A stretch of DNA of 37,877 nt from Fidelibacterota bacterium (lineage in GTDB: Bacteria > Fidelibacterota > Fidelibacteria > Fidelibacterales > Fidelibacteraceae), in NCBI GenBank assembly GCA_018400915.1, contig JAGYLW010000006.1, forward strand, positions 1 to 37,877, in the 5' to 3' direction. The notes under the pieces are model-generated. The model saw only the letters and a list, made by a program, of their open reading frames with translations, was not told the origin of the DNA and searched no databases. Made by a program: the position numbers and the translations under genes. Positions within the stretch are counted from its first letter, which is position 1, and each line of letters opens with the position of its first letter. Shown piece by piece: positions 11,711 to 21,615 of this stretch.

Positions 11711-14700
11711 ATGGAAAAAGCAAGATCGTATGCAACAAGGGCACTCATGCTCATGTGCGTGTTCTGCCTGACATTTGCTTCGGCCGATGTCACACGGGAA
11801 TTCCGTGCAATGACAGAAAGCGAATTCAACCGGCTCGTTGAGCGTGAAGGCGTTTATCAGCCGGATGTCAACTATAATGTGATCGTGAACGGATTCGGTA
11901 CCGGGCTGCGTCCTCCCCGGGAAACAGAGTGGCGTGAACTCAGCCAGCGATCTGTCATTCTCGATCTCCCGGCAACCATGAGCTCCACCGTGCCAACGTC
12001 TCACGATAACTCGGCAACGGTCTGGTTCCCGCCCGTGGGCAATCAGGGCGCGGAAGGCTCCTGTGTTTCGTGGGCGACGGCATACTATACCAAGACCTTT
12101 CAGGAAGCCTTCGAGCACAACCGGGATCTGTCCGGCGCGCTCTGGGAAGGCAGTGCAACGGGGTATCCGAGCCCTGCGTATCAGGACCTGATCTTCAGTC
12201 CCGATTTCATCTATCATCAGGTCTGTGACGGTGAGGATAACGGTTCCTATTATTCGGATAATCTGAACCTCATGAATTACATCGGATGCTGTTCCTGGGA
12301 AAAAATGCCCTACGACCCCACGCAGCAGACGGTGTGGCCGTCCGAACCCGCCTGGCGGCAGGCACCCCTGTACCGTTCGGACACGGGCTACGGCTGGATA
12401 TGGACCGATACGGATACCGGCCTTGACGACCTGAAATGGTGGCTTTCCGAGAATAATCTGGCGATCATCAGTGTTGACGCCTACAAATACGAATATCTGA
12501 CTGCCGAAGATCTCTGGACCACGGACCAGTACTCCAGTCCTTCGCGAAATCACGCGAATACGGTCGTCGGCTACGACGATAGTTACGGGCCCTATTCTGA
12601 GGGCGGAGAACAGCGTTACGGCGCTTTCAAGGTCGTGAATTCCTGGGGTACGGAAGAATGGGACAATAATAACGACGGTTTTTACTATATCTCCTACGAA
12701 TGTATGAAACAGTGGATCGAATACGTCTTTGCCTATGTGGACCTGATCGGATATCAGCCACAGTTGCTGGCCGTTTTCAGCATTCAGCATGATCAGCGGG
12801 GAAGATGCGAACTAGCATTCGGCATTGAGGAATCTCCGGGAACTTATTTTACTAAGAATATGAGCCGGGATTTTACCCTTCACGGCGGAGATCACCCTTT
12901 CCCCGAAAATAATATGGTGATTGATATCAGCGAATTCCTCCCTTACGGGAGCGGTGCGGGTGATAATCTGTATCTCTCGGTATGCGATTCAGGCAGTACG
13001 ACGGGCTGGATCAATGCGTTTTCCGTTGAATTTTATGACGATTACCTGTCGGGGTCTCCCGTTCAGACATGGCATTCCTCCGACATACCGCTGCAAACCG
13101 CGGCACTGACCCCGGTCTATGCAACAATTTACACGGACTCGGGCGCGGTCCCGGATATTGCGGTCTCGCCGGCCGGCCTGTATCACAATGTCCACACCGA
13201 CACCCTCATTACGGATGAGATCCTGATACGCAACGACGGCAGCGGGGAACTGACCTTTGATGTCGAGATCGCCTTTACCTCCGCTTCCCCCGTCCATTCG
13301 CTCAAAATTCTGAAAGCCGGCAGCGGACCGAATGACGGTCCGAACGATTATACGGAATATCTTCTGGCCACAGCTGAAGAAAAAGGAAGCACTGCCGGCT
13401 GGCTCAACGTGACACCGCTTTCCGGAAGCCTGGCGGCCTCCGAAAGCATGACGCTTGAGGTCGTTTTCAATTCGGAACTTGTCAGCGAGGCGGTGCACAC
13501 CGCCAGTATCCTCATTCATTCCAACGACCCCGAGGATCCGGTCATTACGGTAGGAGCGACCCTGAACAAGACCTACCGTAACCTGACCACGAACGACAAT
13601 GAAAACAACGCTTATGAGGGTATCCCCGATTACGATATGGATACCTATTTGTTCAATACCTCATCCATTACACCGATCGAATTCAATATCTTTATCGGGG
13701 AGAGCACGATTGCCGATGCGCAGCTGAGCATTTATGCCTGGGATATCGACGAAACCTCCGGTGAGATCGACCAGGTCTATCTGAACGGTCATTATATCGG
13801 CGACCTGACCGGTGCCGACAACCAGTGGAGCACCTCGGTATTCAATGTCGATCCCGCATACCTGAATCCCGGGCCCTCGGGAAAAAATACGGTCATGATC
13901 GATATCGACATACATAATTCCGGATACTGGGCGACAACGGTTGACTGGGGACAGCTGGTCATCAACGGCGGCACTTCTGTAAGCTCCGCATGGATACGTA
14001 CCGTAAATCTGGATAATTCCCAGTATCATGCCGATGAAAATATTGCCGTGACCGTGGAGGTCGATACGGATACCAGCAGTATGGAAGTCGTGCTGGAAAC
14101 CAATCTTTTGGATCCGGACGCTGTGAACATTGCGGGCATTTCGAATACGGTAACGATATCCGGTACGGAAGATGACCCGGTCACCGAACTGCTGTACATT
14201 CCCTACGGAAGCGCTCCGGGCACCTACACGGTGCAGGTCCTGGTCTATGATGCAGAAACCTATATCCAGCAGGATATGGAACTTATCGAGGTGAATGTGG
14301 TGGACCTGACGGCCGGCATCACTGTCACGCCCGCCTCCCTGTCCGAAGAACTGCAGACGGGTACCATGTCCACCCGGATCCTCAGCATCTCCAACACCGG
14401 GGGCTCTGACCTCAGCTGGGAAACGGTTCCCCTCACTTCCCTTTATCTGAGCGAATACCACCCGTTTACCGGAACTTCTGTAACGACCATAGATAATCTT
14501 CCGACAACCCCGGCACCGGAAACCGGGACAGCCTGCCGGCCGCTGTTCAGCAAACGCATTTACGATACTCGCGATGCATCTCTCAGCGAACTGAACACCC
14601 TTCTCCTTGAAGAGCACAACGGTATCTATCATTATGACAATGCTTTGAACGCGCTGGGGATGGGGCGGACGCTGGTAACGACCTGGGATCATTTTTATAC

Positions 14701-17005
14701 CGAACTGACCAACGGTACCCCCTGGGACCTGGTGATCGTCAACAGCTACAGCAATCCCCCGGGAAGCGTCACCCTGGATCAACTCAGCAGCTATGTGAGC
14801 GGCGGCGGACTCCTCATTTTCACCGACTGGTATCTTTCCTCCTACGCAACACACAGTCTTGTTGCGGAGATGAACATTTCCTGGGAGAGCGATCTTTATT
14901 CCCCGCTCGGATTTTATCCCACCGTCCCCTCACATCCCGTTTTCAATTTCCCGAATCAGACCCCGGATTTCGCCGTCACGGATGATCAGTACAACATTGA
15001 CGGTCAGCGGGTCGGCGTGAGCGGCGGCGGCAACGCGCTGGCCGCATATACGGGCTATCCCTCCAACCCGGCGATCGTCCTGAACGCTTCCGGGAACTGC
15101 TTTTTCAACGCTTTCCAGGCGGTCAATTTCAATGCGGATAACGACACCGACGGTAAAGCCGACATCCAGGAATTGATCGAAAACCAGATCATGTACCTGA
15201 CGGAAACGACCTATATACCCGAATGGCTGAGCACAGGTCCGCCCTCCTCGGGGATCATTCCCCCCGGCGCCTCGCAGGACGTACCGGTTAATTTCGACGC
15301 CACCTGCCTTTCGCCCGGAGAGTACACGGCCAGCATTGATGTCGTCAGCAACGATCCGGACCACGGATTGATCAGCATTCCGGTGCTGTGCAATGTGATT
15401 GATCTTCTGGATGCCGACATCACGCTCAGCATCGCCGGGACGGAAGGCGTGCTCGGAAACATCGTCAGTATTCCGGTCATTGCGGATTCCGGCTTCACGA
15501 ACGTCGGCATGCTGGAACTGCAGGTCGCTTTCGACACCACCTTGCTGGGCTATGAGAATATGTACAGCGAATATCTTTCAGCCGGCGATGTCAACGCGGC
15601 GGGTGAAAATATCAATATCGTATGGGTTTATTCCGGTACGCCGATGATGATACCGGACGGAGACACGCTGATCGTGTTCCACTTCCGGGTCAGCGAACTT
15701 GCGGCGGGAGGCGATCACTGCGTCCTCGGATTCACTGAAAACTGCAATATCGCCGACCCGGACGAAAACACCTTTGCCCTTGCCCTGAACCCCGGTACGT
15801 TCACGGTCATCCAAAGCTACGGCATTTCGGGCTCACTCAGCTACTGTGATAACGGCAGCCCCCTTATTGCCGATACCCTGTACCTTTGCGGGGATGTCAA
15901 TGCGACCGCCGTCACGGACGGAGACGGACGATTTATCTTCTCCGCCGCCTTCGGATCCCTGGCGCTGTTCCCCCTGAAGGAGGATGAGATCAGCAGCATT
16001 GACGGATTTGACCTTCTCCGCCTGAAAAACAGCCTTCTTGAGGTTTCTGATCTAACAGCGAATGAAATGCTTGCCGCGGACTGCGACGGGAACGGAACGC
16101 CGGACGGCCTGGATCTTCTGCGGCTCAAGAACCATCTCCTGATGATCCCCGTGGACCCGCCGGCACTTACCTGGGCTTTTACCCCGGAAGCTTACTTCTA
16201 TGATTCGCTTGCATCCGATATGGACGACCAGGACTTCACGGCATTCCTGTACGGGGATGTCAACCTGAGCTGGGGAACTTCCGCCGCCACCCCGGCAGGA
16301 TCGGAAGAAAACGCAATGGCGCAGGTGTCCTTCGGGGAATTTTCCGTCGATGAACAGGGATTTTTGCATCTTCCCGTCTATACCGACCGTGACCTTCGGA
16401 TCGCCATGCTCGACTGGAATATCCGCTTCGATACCACCGAACTCCGTTTTACCGGGCTGGAAAGCGAACTGATCGGCGATTACCATTGCTCTGGCAATAC
16501 GCTCAACTGTATCTGGCTCTATGACGGTGAAGAAAAGGAAATTGCCGCAAACAGCATCATTGCAGAGCTGATATTCAGGCCCGAAGCTTCACAGGCCGCC
16601 TCTGTGATCGCATTCAGCGGGGCGAATCACCTGGCCGCAGCGGATGAAAGTCCCGTTGAGGCCATATACGGCAGCGTGACCGTCAACACGGCCCTCCTGA
16701 GTCTTCTGGAGGGCGCACAGCTTCCGACAGAAACAACCCTCTACCGGAACTACCCGAATCCCTTCAACCCCAGCACTGTGATCTCCTATTATCTGAAGGA
16801 TGCATCCGACGTGACGGTAAAGATCTACAATCTCCGCGGCGAATCCCTTCAGACCTGGCACAACGGCTATCAGGACCCGGGCTTCTATCAGCTTACCTGG
16901 AACGGCCGCGATGCGCAGGGCCGTTCGGTCCCCACGGGGATCTACTTTTACCAGCTGCTCCATGGCGAAGGAACGGATGTCAGGCGCATGGTCTACATGA
17001 AATAA
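11711..17005 (+). CDS. Giant secreted papain-like (C1-type) cysteine protease with Ig-like/anchor repeats, a GATase/ThuA-like segment, cohesin-dockerin-cohesin module and C-terminal T9SS/FlgD-like sorting domain
   Basis: Signal-like N-terminus; catalytic motifs QGAEGSCVSWA, NHANTVVGYDDS, VVNSWGTEEWD; two cohesin-like domains (about 15410-15811 and 16316-16690); dockerin-like repeats ISSIDGFDLLRLKNSLL / DCDGNGTPDGLDLLRLKNHLL; C-terminus LYRNYPNPFNPSTVISYYL...GRSVPTGIYFYQL...MVYMK. Confidence 0.9.
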   Translation: MEKARSYATRALMLMCVFCLTFASADVTREFRAMTESEFNRLVEREGVYQPDVNYNVIVNGFGTGLRPPRETEWRELSQRSVILDLPATMSSTVPTSHDNSATVWFPPVGNQGAEGSCVSWATAYYTKTFQEAFEHNRDLSGALWEGSATGYPSPAYQDLIFSPDFIYHQVCDGEDNGSYYSDNLNLMNYIGCCSWEKMPYDPTQQTVWPSEPAWRQAPLYRSDTGYGWIWTDTDTGLDDLKWWLSENNLAIISVDAYKYEYLTAEDLWTTDQYSSPSRNHANTVVGYDDSYGPYSEGGEQRYGAFKVVNSWGTEEWDNNNDGFYYISYECMKQWIEYVFAYVDLIGYQPQLLAVFSIQHDQRGRCELAFGIEESPGTYFTKNMSRDFTLHGGDHPFPENNMVIDISEFLPYGSGAGDNLYLSVCDSGSTTGWINAFSVEFYDDYLSGSPVQTWHSSDIPLQTAALTPVYATIYTDSGAVPDIAVSPAGLYHNVHTDTLITDEILIRNDGSGELTFDVEIAFTSASPVHSLKILKAGSGPNDGPNDYTEYLLATAEEKGSTAGWLNVTPLSGSLAASESMTLEVVFNSELVSEAVHTASILIHSNDPEDPVITVGATLNKTYRNLTTNDNENNAYEGIPDYDMDTYLFNTSSITPIEFNIFIGESTIADAQLSIYAWDIDETSGEIDQVYLNGHYIGDLTGADNQWSTSVFNVDPAYLNPGPSGKNTVMIDIDIHNSGYWATTVDWGQLVINGGTSVSSAWIRTVNLDNSQYHADENIAVTVEVDTDTSSMEVVLETNLLDPDAVNIAGISNTVTISGTEDDPVTELLYIPYGSAPGTYTVQVLVYDAETYIQQDMELIEVNVVDLTAGITVTPASLSEELQTGTMSTRILSISNTGGSDLSWETVPLTSLYLSEYHPFTGTSVTTIDNLPTTPAPETGTACRPLFSKRIYDTRDASLSELNTLLLEEHNGIYHYDNALNALGMGRTLVTTWDHFYTELTNGTPWDLVIVNSYSNPPGSVTLDQLSSYVSGGGLLIFTDWYLSSYATHSLVAEMNISWESDLYSPLGFYPTVPSHPVFNFPNQTPDFAVTDDQYNIDGQRVGVSGGGNALAAYTGYPSNPAIVLNASGNCFFNAFQAVNFNADNDTDGKADIQELIENQIMYLTETTYIPEWLSTGPPSSGIIPPGASQDVPVNFDATCLSPGEYTASIDVVSNDPDHGLISIPVLCNVIDLLDADITLSIAGTEGVLGNIVSIPVIADSGFTNVGMLELQVAFDTTLLGYENMYSEYLSAGDVNAAGENINIVWVYSGTPMMIPDGDTLIVFHFRVSELAAGGDHCVLGFTENCNIADPDENTFALALNPGTFTVIQSYGISGSLSYCDNGSPLIADTLYLCGDVNATAVTDGDGRFIFSAAFGSLALFPLKEDEISSIDGFDLLRLKNSLLEVSDLTANEMLAADCDGNGTPDGLDLLRLKNHLLMIPVDPPALTWAFTPEAYFYDSLASDMDDQDFTAFLYGDVNLSWGTSAATPAGSEENAMAQVSFGEFSVDEQGFLHLPVYTDRDLRIAMLDWNIRFDTTELRFTGLESELIGDYHCSGNTLNCIWLYDGEEKEIAANSIIAELIFRPEASQAASVIAFSGANHLAAADESPVEAIYGSVTVNTALLSLLEGAQLPTETTLYRNYPNPFNPSTVISYYLKDASDVTVKIYNLRGESLQTWHNGYQDPGFYQLTWNGRDAQGRSVPTGIYFYQLLHGEGTDVRRMVYMK

Positions 17006-17055: not shown

Positions 17056-20000
17056 ATGAAATTTACAAACACTGCAGTCAACAGGAAAAGCGGAGGGACC
17101 GTCTTTACCGCCCTCTTGATCCTTTTCCTGCTCACGACCCTGAACGCATGGGGTCAGGAAAACGGAAGGAGACCCTACCCCGCCGGTTACCGGCCGGATG
17201 CGATCCCTTCGCTGAGATCCTCACAAGTACAGACCCTCCGGGACGGCATTCCCGTCTCCCTGCCCTATTCGGAAGATTTTGAAAGCGGGGCGCTGGGATG
17301 GATCAGCGACGGATTCTATCACCTGAAAGAGAACCCACAGCATATCAGGGTCCTGAATCCGCTTATCAACCCGAACATGGTCCGCCTCCCGGATGCGGGA
17401 TATCTCCCTGCGGCCCACAGCGGCAGCGGGGTCATGTGGTTTGGTGAAGACACCACGGGAACGTTTATCGGAAGTGACTTTGATCCCGACCAGGAGCCCC
17501 TGAGCGGAGGCACTTCCGTTTCCGCCTTTACGGGAAATCTGATCTCTCCGGAGATCGATCTGACGGGTGTCCTGAATGCACAGCTGGAATTCTTCACCTG
17601 GTGGGAGATCGAAGGTGTGGATGCCAACGCCTATGACATGATGTATGTCGACGTTTCAACGGACGGCGGCGTCACCTTCATAATCCTGGGGACGCTGAAT
17701 CCCCTGAACGACCTGGACGGAGAGCCTTACGTATCCTTTACGAATTCCGGCCTTGGCGAACCCGCTCACTGGGGAAAAAAGATCTTTGACCTTTCCGCAT
17801 TTGCCGGGGATCACATCCTGATCCGCTTCCGTTTTGAAACGGTGGATGAATTGTACAACGGCTTCAGAGGCTGGCTTATTGATGACGTGGCGGTCACGGA
17901 AGGAATACTGGCCGCCCCGCAGATCGCAGGTGTTGAACCTGACAGGGGCATTGTGGAAAGCATGTTCATGATACAGGGAGATGATTTCGCCAACAGCGCA
18001 ACCGTGTTCCTGGGCGATACACCGATACCTTCCTCGGTGCTGAACACGCAAAGCATTCAATGTCAGGTCCCCTATCTGCCCACAGGTGTCTATGATGTGG
18101 CCGTTGAAAATCCCAACGGTCTGGCGGACACGCTTTACGGTGCTTTTTCCGTCACCGAGGACCTTCCGCCGCTGATCGTTTCGGTGGACCCTTCGGAAAC
18201 CTACATCGGCGAACCTGTCACTATTTCCATCAGCGGTGAAAATTTCCATCCCTCCGCGGTACCCTATGTCGGAGGAGAAGGATCTCCCGACCACAGCTGG
18301 GTGGATTCGACGCTCATCCGCTGCCTGACACCGGCCGGTCTCGGTATCGGCACGCACAACGTGAAAGTGGTCAACCCGGACGAGCAGTATGATCTTCTGG
18401 TGGACGCATTCACGGTAAGTCCGCACGGCACAGCCCTCTCAGGTTACGTGACCGACGCCTTCAACGCACAACCGGTCGAAGGGGCGGTCGTCACCCTGGC
18501 AACGGTTTCCGACACTACCGACAGCGAGGGATACTATCTTCTGTCAGATGTTCCCGCCGGGGAACTGACGGCGGAATTTATGGCGACGCCCACTGCCGGA
18601 GAGGTTCCGCTAACCGTCAATTTCATGGACCTTTCCACTTCCAACACCCAGACCGTTACGGCCGCCGCCGAAGGTTATATGGATTACTTTAATACGCAGG
18701 TACCGGTATTTGCCGGCGAGGAGAACATCCTGAACATTTCCCTGTCTCCGGAGATCGGCGAAGGGGAGATGCGATTCGTGCTTACCTGGGATGACGATCC
18801 CGCAGACCTGGATTCTCATCTGAAAACCCCGCCGATCGACGGAACAAGCTATCATGTCTATTATGCTGCGAAAGGCGATTCGCTGAATCCTCCCTTTGCC
18901 CGGCTGGATGTGGATGACGTCACCGGTTACGGCCCGGAAACCATTACCCTGTATGAGACCTTTGACGGCACCTACTATTACTATATTTACAAATATTCCG
19001 GATATGAAGAGATCACGCAGTCCAATGCGGTCGTCAATATCTATGACAATACGGGGCTTGTGCAGACCCTTCAGGTCCCGACGACCGGAATCGGACGATT
19101 CTGGAATATTGGTACGATCGACGGTGCCAGTAAACACATCACCCTTGTGAACCGGATACAGGAAACGGAGCCCGGGATTCCCTCCCTCGCCGCCGCTTTC
19201 CCGAAAAGCCCGGAATATCTGGCAACACGGTCCGGTACCGGCGTCAGCGTCGGTATCAGCACCTGGGAATGGGATTTCGGCGACGGAGAAGGCAGCACAG
19301 TGGCCAATCCCGAACATATCTATACGGAGCCCGGAAGCTATACGGTAAGCCTGACGGTCAGTGACGGTGTGAATCAGCGGACCCGGGTCCGGGAAAACCA
19401 CATCAACGCTTTCACCGGCAACGATATCTCCCTTACCGTTGCTTCCGCAGAGGGATATGCCGGTATTACCGTTGATATCCCGGTCATCGTCAATTCCGGC
19501 TTCAGTAATGTCGGGATGCTGGACCTTCAGCTTCAGTATGACACCACCATGCTTCATCTTGTGGACATCGGAAGTGAATACCTGTCTCCCGGTGATATGA
19601 ATGCCGCGGAAGACCGGATCAACGCGGTCTGGGTCTATCCTGGAACAGCCCTGGAGATCCCGGACGGTGATACGCTGATGCTGCTGCATTTCGGCGTGAA
19701 CGGATCCGTCATGGAGGGTGATCACAGCCTGATCTCCTTCTCCGGGAACAACCTCATTGCCGCCCCCGATGAGAGCCTCTTTGACCTTGAGCTCAGCAAC
19801 GGGGTTTTCAGCGGTCTTATGACACCCTATCTTGAACTCCATCTTCCCGACGAAACAAGCTTGCGGGAAGACTACCTCATTGAGATCGGCATCGATTACA
19901 ATGCTTTCCCGGATACGGAAATACCCCTGGAGATCAATGCGGCACCGGAATACCTTGCGCTGAATGCGGACAGTTCCGCACTTACGGGCATACCGGGCAA

Positions 20001-21615
20001 CCGGGATGTAGGTCTCAATACCCTATCGGTAACGGCATATGACATCGTCTACGGCGGCCAGTTCACGGAAACGATCACTTATACCGTTGAAAATGCCCCC
20101 TGTGAGATCCGTTCACTGCCGCCGATCGCCATCCTCACCGGCATGGAGTATGTATATGACGTCAATGCCGACGATGAGAATGAAGGAGCCGTATACAGCT
20201 ACCTCCAGGGACCCGCATTCCTCTCCATCGATGACAGTACCGGCGTCCTTTCCGGTATTTCCGATGCTTCGTATGTGGGATCCCACTATATGCGTGTCAT
20301 GGTCGATGACGGGAACGGCAGCACCGACATCCAGGAATGGATGCTTTCCATCCTGCCTGCGAACGATGAAGAAGAAGCGCCGCCGGTGCTCGGCGAATTT
20401 CCGCCCTTCATTTTTAACGAGGACGACACTTCCTCGCTTATCCTGCTTGACGATTATGTGGAGGATGCAGACACGCCGGACGAGGAGCTGGAATGGCTCT
20501 TTATCGTCAACGGGAACGAACACACCGATCTCTATGCCCTGCTCTATGATGACGATGGTACTTCCCCACGGACAAAAAGCAGTGTGCTCGGCCTTAATGT
20601 CCTCTATCACCCCGAGACCCGCGAACTGGCCTTCTACGGCGAGCCGGACTGGTACGGTGAGACCATGGTTACCGTGGTTGTTACCGACGGCGACCGCCTG
20701 GCCGTAGGCTATATCCCCGTCACGGTGCTGAACGTGAACGACGCACCGCATATGATTCCCTTTACAAATGTGGTCTTCCTTGAAGATGCACAGTCCGCGG
20801 TGTATGACCTTTCCGCTTATATTCAGGATATTGACAATACCTTCAGCGAACTGGACATTGAAGTCACGGGGAATACCGATATCAGCTTTACACTACTGAA
20901 CGGAAGTTTACAGTTCAGTGCAGCGGAAGACTGGAACGGACAAGAAATGCTGACCCTCAGTGCCAGCGACGCGGAATATACCGCCTCCTGTGAATTTCTG
21001 GTCGTCGTTGTCCCGGTGAACGATCCCCCGCAGAGCTTCGCGCTCAGCTCCCCGTCCGAAGGGGAAGTGATCGATACTTCCTTTATTCGTTTCAACTGGG
21101 AAACGGCGGTTGACGTGGATGAAAACGATATTGTGACCTATTCCCTGACGGTCACGGATGCCGATCTGAACGTGATCCTGGAGACGGAGACCGAAGCGAC
21201 GGACTTTTCCTGGGATTCGCCCCTTAACGGCAATTACGAATGGAAAGTGGAGGCCCGGGATATCGCGGAGGCGGTCACCGAAAGCGAAACCCGCGGATTC
21301 ACCGTCGATGTTCTGAGCATGATCAGGGCCGTTCCGGCGGAATTCGCGCTCCTGCAGAACTATCCCAATCCCTTTAATCCGCTCACCTGCATTCAGTACG
21401 GACTTCCCCACCCATGTGATGTCCGCCTCAGCATTTTCGATATCAGCGGACGCCGTGTCCGGGAATGGCATGACGGAACCCGGCAGGCCGGCTGGCATGA
21501 AGTGGTCTGGGACGGCAGGAACCATTCCGGCCGGCAGGTTTCCACCGGCATCTACATTTACATGCTACAGGCCGGGAACTTTACGGAAACCCGTAAAATG
21601 CTCTTCATGAAATAA
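17056..21615 (+). CDS. Giant secreted multidomain protein (MAM-like, IPT/TIG, carboxypeptidase-regulatory-like, YfaP-like, PKD, cohesin, cadherin/Ig-like, C-terminal sorting domain)
   Basis: Signal-like N-terminus; LPYSEDFESGALGW...WLIDDVAVTEG; TIG repeats; LSGYVTDAFNAQPVEGAVV; LTWDDDPADLDSHL...YHVYY; WEWDFGDGEGSTVANPEHIYTEPGSYTVSLTVSD; cohesin about 19420-19821; C-terminus LLQNYPNPFNPLTCIQYGL...MLFMK. Confidence 0.88.
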   Translation: MKFTNTAVNRKSGGTVFTALLILFLLTTLNAWGQENGRRPYPAGYRPDAIPSLRSSQVQTLRDGIPVSLPYSEDFESGALGWISDGFYHLKENPQHIRVLNPLINPNMVRLPDAGYLPAAHSGSGVMWFGEDTTGTFIGSDFDPDQEPLSGGTSVSAFTGNLISPEIDLTGVLNAQLEFFTWWEIEGVDANAYDMMYVDVSTDGGVTFIILGTLNPLNDLDGEPYVSFTNSGLGEPAHWGKKIFDLSAFAGDHILIRFRFETVDELYNGFRGWLIDDVAVTEGILAAPQIAGVEPDRGIVESMFMIQGDDFANSATVFLGDTPIPSSVLNTQSIQCQVPYLPTGVYDVAVENPNGLADTLYGAFSVTEDLPPLIVSVDPSETYIGEPVTISISGENFHPSAVPYVGGEGSPDHSWVDSTLIRCLTPAGLGIGTHNVKVVNPDEQYDLLVDAFTVSPHGTALSGYVTDAFNAQPVEGAVVTLATVSDTTDSEGYYLLSDVPAGELTAEFMATPTAGEVPLTVNFMDLSTSNTQTVTAAAEGYMDYFNTQVPVFAGEENILNISLSPEIGEGEMRFVLTWDDDPADLDSHLKTPPIDGTSYHVYYAAKGDSLNPPFARLDVDDVTGYGPETITLYETFDGTYYYYIYKYSGYEEITQSNAVVNIYDNTGLVQTLQVPTTGIGRFWNIGTIDGASKHITLVNRIQETEPGIPSLAAAFPKSPEYLATRSGTGVSVGISTWEWDFGDGEGSTVANPEHIYTEPGSYTVSLTVSDGVNQRTRVRENHINAFTGNDISLTVASAEGYAGITVDIPVIVNSGFSNVGMLDLQLQYDTTMLHLVDIGSEYLSPGDMNAAEDRINAVWVYPGTALEIPDGDTLMLLHFGVNGSVMEGDHSLISFSGNNLIAAPDESLFDLELSNGVFSGLMTPYLELHLPDETSLREDYLIEIGIDYNAFPDTEIPLEINAAPEYLALNADSSALTGIPGNRDVGLNTLSVTAYDIVYGGQFTETITYTVENAPCEIRSLPPIAILTGMEYVYDVNADDENEGAVYSYLQGPAFLSIDDSTGVLSGISDASYVGSHYMRVMVDDGNGSTDIQEWMLSILPANDEEEAPPVLGEFPPFIFNEDDTSSLILLDDYVEDADTPDEELEWLFIVNGNEHTDLYALLYDDDGTSPRTKSSVLGLNVLYHPETRELAFYGEPDWYGETMVTVVVTDGDRLAVGYIPVTVLNVNDAPHMIPFTNVVFLEDAQSAVYDLSAYIQDIDNTFSELDIEVTGNTDISFTLLNGSLQFSAAEDWNGQEMLTLSASDAEYTASCEFLVVVVPVNDPPQSFALSSPSEGEVIDTSFIRFNWETAVDVDENDIVTYSLTVTDADLNVILETETEATDFSWDSPLNGNYEWKVEARDIAEAVTESETRGFTVDVLSMIRAVPAEFALLQNYPNPFNPLTCIQYGLPHPCDVRLSIFDISGRRVREWHDGTRQAGWHEVVWDGRNHSGRQVSTGIYIYMLQAGNFTETRKMLFMK

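Follow-up and report, generated by a model that had tools for sequence, protein, structure and literature searches.

A secreted papain-family peptidase carrying cohesins and an X-dockerin, beside a cohesin-bearing neighbour, in a Neomarinimicrobiota genome

The 37,877-nt window, the whole stretch of DNA analysed here, comes from contig JAGYLW010000006.1 of the Fidelibacterota bacterium MAG GCA_018400915.1, whose phylum we call Neomarinimicrobiota. It holds two adjacent genes for large modular proteins, the peptidase p1 and p2, the protein of the next gene (Table 1). Namely, p1 consists of a papain-like domain, then Ig-like repeats, and near its C-terminus a segment of cohesin and dockerin modules, a molecular plug-and-socket pair well known from cellulose-degrading complexes. 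This segment covers residues 1236-1660: the first cohesin, Coh1, begins at residue 1236 (nt 15416), the X segment GISGSLSYCDNGSPL at residue 1371, the dockerin repeats occupy residues 1423-1443 and 1457-1477, and the second cohesin, Coh2, residues 1535-1660. All motifs quoted in the initial annotation of a cohesin-dockerin-cohesin module are present in p1 where it had placed them.

Table 1. Features of p1 and p2 with positions in the window.
Feature	Position (nt)	Strand	Basis
p1, 1764-aa secreted papain-family peptidase, Coh1-X-Doc-Coh2-CTD	11711..17005	+	ORF, Pfam
p1 signal peptide MEKARSYATRALMLMCVFCLTFASA	11711..11785	+	read from sequence (no predictor)
p1 papain-like (C1) catalytic domain	11996..12745	+	alignment, profile search
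p1 catalytic Q112, C118, H281, N310	codons 12044, 12062, 12551, 12638	+	invariant, three-row alignment
Coh1, free-moving cohesin class	15416..15811	+	profile to solved cohesins, AF2, Foldseek, clade
X module immediately C-terminal to Coh1, beta domain of CnaB/transthyretin-like type	15818..15976	+	AF2/Foldseek (low confidence), relatives
Dockerin repeat 1, helix DLLRLKNSLL; loop lacks calcium ligands at positions 1 and 5	15977..16039	+	PF00404, loop table
Dockerin repeat 2, helix DLLRLKNHLL; calcium loop complete (DCDGNGTPDGLD)	16079..16141	+	PF00404, loop table
X-Doc tail, W-x-F-x-P ... GDVNLSWG	16142..16276	+	alignments
Coh2, class directly after X-Doc	16313..16690	+	profiles, AF2, clade
p1 C-terminal FlgD_ig / Por_Secre_tail sorting domain	16736..17002	+	Pfam
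p2, 1519 aa: MAM, TIG, CarboxypepD_reg, PKD, cohesin, He_PIG, FlgD_ig	17056..21615	+	Pfam
p2 cohesin, Coh1 class	19423..19821	+	PF00963, own-genome census, clade

The host MAG (1.7 Mb, 88% complete) belongs to a genus represented by itself and nine other genomes, within a phylum sample of 149 Neomarinimicrobiota genomes. GC and GC3 of p1 and p2 resemble those of the flanks, so composition lends no support to a recent foreign origin. The neighbouring phosphofructokinase is 67-68% identical to same-genus genomes, a value that fits the genus and speaks, without proving it, against mis-binning of the contig. Gene order around 6-phosphofructokinase is not kept across the genus, so no insertion site could be shown.

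The peptidase assignment comes through relatives, as p1 has no Pfam match to PF00112 itself. Q112, C118, H281 and N310 are all kept, in this order, in the three peptidase orthologs (p1 and two others, 52-57% identical to p1), and a profile made from their alignment finds relatives at E about 1e-50 that themselves pass PF00112 at 45 bits, so that the papain-like label first given to p1 is correct; a match to Lpg2622 has E 0.01. The profile also reaches eight further genomes of the phylum sample, two of which (G026 and G081) encode a protein that passes Peptidase_C1 and carries an ordinary C-terminal dockerin. A dockerin-bearing papain-family peptidase is thus recurrent in the phylum, whereas the cohesin-flanked form is restricted. 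At L118:3159-5300 and L119:1010-3043, in two other Neomarinimicrobiota genomes, papain-family peptidases combine a MAM domain with an ordinary C-terminal dockerin that has two calcium loops.

At its C-terminus, p1 matches PF13860 over the cut-off (36.5 bits) and PF18962 Por_Secre_tail under it (20.6 bits, cut-off 27). The FlgD_ig end, together with the SprA translocon (T9SS) encoded in the host genome, makes it likely that p1 is secreted by the type IX system and retained at the surface.

We then consider the dockerin, for which Dockerin_1 (PF00404) matches residues 1429-1477 at 31.3 bits against a cut-off of 22.9 (E 2.4e-7), covering profile positions 9-57 of 57 and bearing out the dockerin-like repeats of the initial annotation. 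Its reading of the calcium loops was equally correct, with a full loop in repeat 2 and a repeat 1 loop, KEDEISSIDGFD, that is non-acidic at positions 1 and 5; the p1 dockerin therefore does not have two calcium-binding F-hand loops, loop 2 being full but loop 1 degenerate. This asymmetry recurs among twelve X-dockerin (X-Doc) sequences compared: of the three principal acidic ligands, loop 1 retains no more than one in 12 of 12, and loop 2 one to three, usually three, being partly degenerate too in three copies from one genome (G066). Such relatives were recovered by alignment-based search; a single-protein search of the genome contigs with the dockerin region returned none, and one X-Doc alignment was too diverse for use as a search profile.

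The recognition helices of the two p1 repeats are identical at 11 of 14 positions. Across the twelve sequences, which were hand-picked, helix agreement between repeats averages 10/14 within a protein versus 3.4/14 between lineages, and 2 of 120 arrangements were as good or better in a five-lineage permutation. Two studies give two similar cohesin-binding faces as the mark of dual-binding dockerins (PMC4728124, PMC5429695), from which the interface is apparently under selection with one calcium site given up. Judged from these helices and loops, a lineage-specific, symmetric dockerin interface appears to have been kept though loop 1 lost its calcium ligands family-wide.

That same family-wide loss would also suit modules that are vestigial or purely structural, a beta-sandwich stalk and an EF-hand-like spacer that bind nothing, as would the 5 of 37 genomes that have an X-Doc-profile match and no detected cohesin. 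The concerted change of both recognition helices by lineage speaks against this, as do the dockerin and free cohesin genes that lie adjacent at independent loci and the presence of cohesins in 32 of the 37 genomes with an X-Doc-profile match versus 58 of the 112 without (Fisher p 0.0002, which larger secretomes may confound). We consider inert modules an improbable explanation.

Beyond the repeats, F, P, D and GDVNLS of the X-Doc tail are conserved across three alignments, and the X-Doc module measures 153-155 aa in 6 of 7 alignment rows. From the conservation up to GDVNLSWG, the dockerin may be embedded within the X domain rather than simply attached to it. Modelled alone with AlphaFold2 (AF2), X-Doc reaches a pLDDT of 60, and its best Foldseek matches, CipA X-dockerins (2b59, 5g5d) and CnaB folds, are a low-confidence hint; the dockerin part of this pLDDT 60 model superposes on 1ohz_B with TM 0.82. 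The carboxypeptidase-regulatory-like segment initially described here stands in part, since CarboxypepD_reg is sub-threshold in the p1 X segment and gives a weak Pfam match in relatives. Elsewhere (L040, G069), an apparent serralysin-type metalloprotease closes with an X-Doc-like module whose last residues are GDVDGSW and which no cohesin follows.

The two cohesin-like domains of p1 are cohesins, as their initial description implied, although Pfam alone delivers half of the HMM check proposed with it: Dockerin_1 exceeds its cut-off, but Cohesin (PF00963) has no match to p1 at E<=1. The homologous p2 cohesin, 52% identical to p1 Coh1, passes PF00963 at 26.1 bits (cut-off 24.1). A cohesin profile from fourteen relatives matches the solved cohesins 5nrm/5nrk at E 5e-7 and 1g1k at E 7.5e-4, and a whole-cassette profile matches solved dockerins (E 5e-9) and cohesins (E 3e-4). 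For Coh2, the profile match to 4ums has E 0.015 and the own-genome cohesin-profile search E 4.5e-41. Both Coh1 and Coh2 are modelled at a pLDDT of about 90, and Foldseek matches the cassette model to solved cohesins at TM 0.77-0.80, with cohesins throughout the top list; the first three matches are the CipA Coh-X-Doc trimodule (3kcp, 4fl4), which has the same module order, and the solved cohesins matched include the non-cellulosomal 2xdh of Archaeoglobus.

In a tree, Coh1 and Coh2 fall into separate clades (support 98/94) that span Neomarinimicrobiota and one Bacteroidetes MAG. Without exception, Coh2 follows X-Doc directly, and Coh1 varies freely in position and occurs on partner proteins. 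The two are thus not equivalent, with Coh2 constantly joined to X-Doc in one X-Doc-Coh2 block. From this distribution we infer that Coh1 is the likelier dockerin socket, and Coh2 may not be the main X-dockerin receptor.

Tight packing of the cassette, in which modules abut almost without linker and no more than about five residues separate Coh1 from X, would agree with an intramolecular lock, the dockerin binding Coh1 or Coh2 of its own chain and so stiffening or masking the cassette; fusion of X-Doc to Coh2 throughout the close family points the same way. However, the AF2 model of the whole cassette (pTM 0.45) combines confident cohesins and a disordered tail with no confident docking, and Coh1-class cohesins occur on separate, dockerin-free proteins. 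We rate such a lock as very unlikely.

In a sensitive-profile census of the host MAG, the one X-dockerin and each of the three cohesins found belong to p1 or p2. Neither a dedicated scaffoldin nor the combination that defines a cellulosome, a multi-cohesin scaffoldin with several dockerin-bearing glycosidases, was found in this MAG; as it is 88% complete, further partners could have been missed. One weak cohesin match (G000:C6, 12.1 bits, under the cut-off) was absent from the sensitive cohesin-profile results and was dropped. With genuine modules and a census of one dockerin and three cohesins, the initial picture of cohesin and dockerin on a papain-family peptidase outside a cellulosome is upheld. 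None of the nine remaining genomes of this genus gave a peptidase match or a Pfam cohesin match, so the system is dispensable; with Pfam cohesins above the cut-off in 81 of the 149 phylum genomes, its parts are widespread in the phylum and patchily distributed within the genus.

Comparison of loci shows how the modules are distributed between neighbouring genes. The closest split version of the p1/p2 system lies on CAJXLK010000001.1 (L032), a MAG contig labelled Bacteroidetes. Its peptidase ortholog, 52% identical, lacks a dockerin and has two Coh1-class cohesins (together 64.5 bits), and X-Doc-Coh2 is found in the adjoining p2-like gene, an arrangement hinting at inter-phylum transfer or a shared older origin. 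In G038 (L024:4673-10144, + strand), the gene for a VWA protein with X-Doc-Coh2 immediately precedes that of a small protein combining three cohesins with a sorting tail. This small protein is a miniature scaffoldin, and both Pfam cohesin matches found in G038 lie there. The G038 peptidase ortholog has cadherin-like repeats only, so the enzyme does not need cohesin or dockerin modules. Dockerin and Coh1-class cohesins lie on separate adjacent genes at L032, L024 and L025, and two X-Doc-Coh2 genes adjoin one cohesin gene (59.5 bits) in G141.

The cassette itself recurs. G066 encodes four proteins with the cassette or its X-Doc-Coh2 part, among them the peptidase and the p2 ortholog (56-57% identity), as well as a 572-aa protein composed solely of signal, Coh1, X-Doc, Coh2 and CTD (L023:14509-16224, - strand). 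The latter is a bare connector resembling an isolated cassette. Two different G066 proteins have nearly identical X-Doc-Coh2 segments (L022:18221-19063 and L023:9756-10628), which suggests that the cassette was recently duplicated or underwent gene conversion. More divergent Coh-X-Doc-Coh-CTD cassettes are present in G127 and G120.

With p1 and p2 the only partners found in the genome, the initial suggestion of self-association or docking of neighbouring proteins narrows, the split loci favouring neighbours, but the cohesins on which it drew are not equivalent. Self-association would take the form of a homotypic chain in which the p1 dockerin enters Coh1 or Coh2 of other p1 molecules, p2 capping or decorating the result as a single-cohesin protein; the product would be a protease mesh or branched chain on the cell surface whose catalytic protein is its own scaffoldin, with no dedicated one. 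The census supplies such parts, one dockerin and two cohesins on p1, no other dockerin and one other cohesin; p1 Coh1 and the p2 cohesin are of one class and 52% identical, so a dockerin fitting one should fit the other, and the bare connector of G066 fits this reading. Against this, dockerin and Coh1-class cohesins sit on different proteins at L032 and in G038, which favours heterotypic docking, and, to our knowledge, known multi-scaffoldin systems keep specificities apart and their scaffoldins do not self-bind. Moreover, the cohesin-adjacent X-Doc of ScaP bound no cohesin tested (PMC4217186). We therefore hold a p1 polymer to be unlikely, if the most plausible of the alternatives.

We favour, as probable, a Coh1-[X-dockerin]-Coh2-CTD cassette that docks in trans to one or more Coh1-class cohesins and forms a small proteolytic complex, not a cellulosome, at the surface. 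The p1 X-dockerin, carried by a secreted papain-family peptidase that is probably sorted to the surface, would plug, presumably in a calcium-dependent manner, into the Coh1-class cohesin of p2 and/or Coh1 of another p1, and such p1-p2 or p1-p1 docking would build the complex on the cell. Coh2, which accompanies the X-dockerin throughout, may serve as a spacer or as the socket for a different partner.

One dockerin and three cohesins on two adjacent genes make a very small natural cohesin-dockerin inventory, so small that four purified modules could settle who binds whom, and two cohesin classes with a one-calcium dockerin yield concrete predictions. The locus suggests that a cohesin-dockerin pair wires proteolysis, not cellulose breakdown, in Neomarinimicrobiota. 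Its variants, with the modules united in a single protein or divided between neighbours, offer a natural experiment on the evolution of complexes, and the pair could serve as a new orthogonal protein connector.

Several known systems come close. ScaP of Acetivibrio cellulolyticus is likewise one secreted protein in which a peptidase is combined with a cohesin and the X-dockerin next to it (PMC3413522, PMC4217186), but its peptidase is of the S8 subtilisin type, its cohesin is type II and its species bears a cellulosome, whereas p1 joins a papain-family peptidase to an X-dockerin flanked on each side by a cohesin and to a FlgD/T9SS-type tail. CipA of Clostridium thermocellum shares the Coh-X-Doc order and gave the best Foldseek matches (3kcp, 4fl4; X-Doc 2b59, 5g5d); it is a non-catalytic scaffoldin, and p1 adds the GDVNLSWG tail and a second cohesin and has lost loop 1. 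The planctosome of Nemodlikiaceae, proposed as a non-cellulosomal cohesin/dockerin complex for polypeptide degradation (PMC6461901), similarly has an adaptor with both dockerin and cohesin, but its peptidases (M12B, M14) are separate proteins, whereas the p1 peptidase itself carries the dockerin and cohesins. In Ca. Stygibacter (Cloacimonadota), a cellulosome-like surface system likewise bears CTDs and comprises peptidases with dockerins alongside a cohesin-bearing scaffoldin (PMC8542988); that scaffoldin has 3,755 aa and carbohydrate-binding modules, and no comparable protein was detected in the host MAG. ANME archaea combine a dockerin and multiple cohesins in one polypeptide outside cellulosomes, as p1 does, and archaeal pairs are reported to bind (PMC9012536); these modules and the equally non-cellulosomal Archaeoglobus cohesin 2xdh differ in their archaeal context, in which no papain-like enzyme is described. 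Under the phylum name Marinimicrobia, our literature search returned no paper combining Marinimicrobia with cohesin and dockerin. In aggregate, a single protein uniting peptidase, cohesin and X-dockerin is already known, and proteolytic cohesin-dockerin systems outside cellulosomes have already been put forward; the arrangement in p1 is a new variation on this theme.
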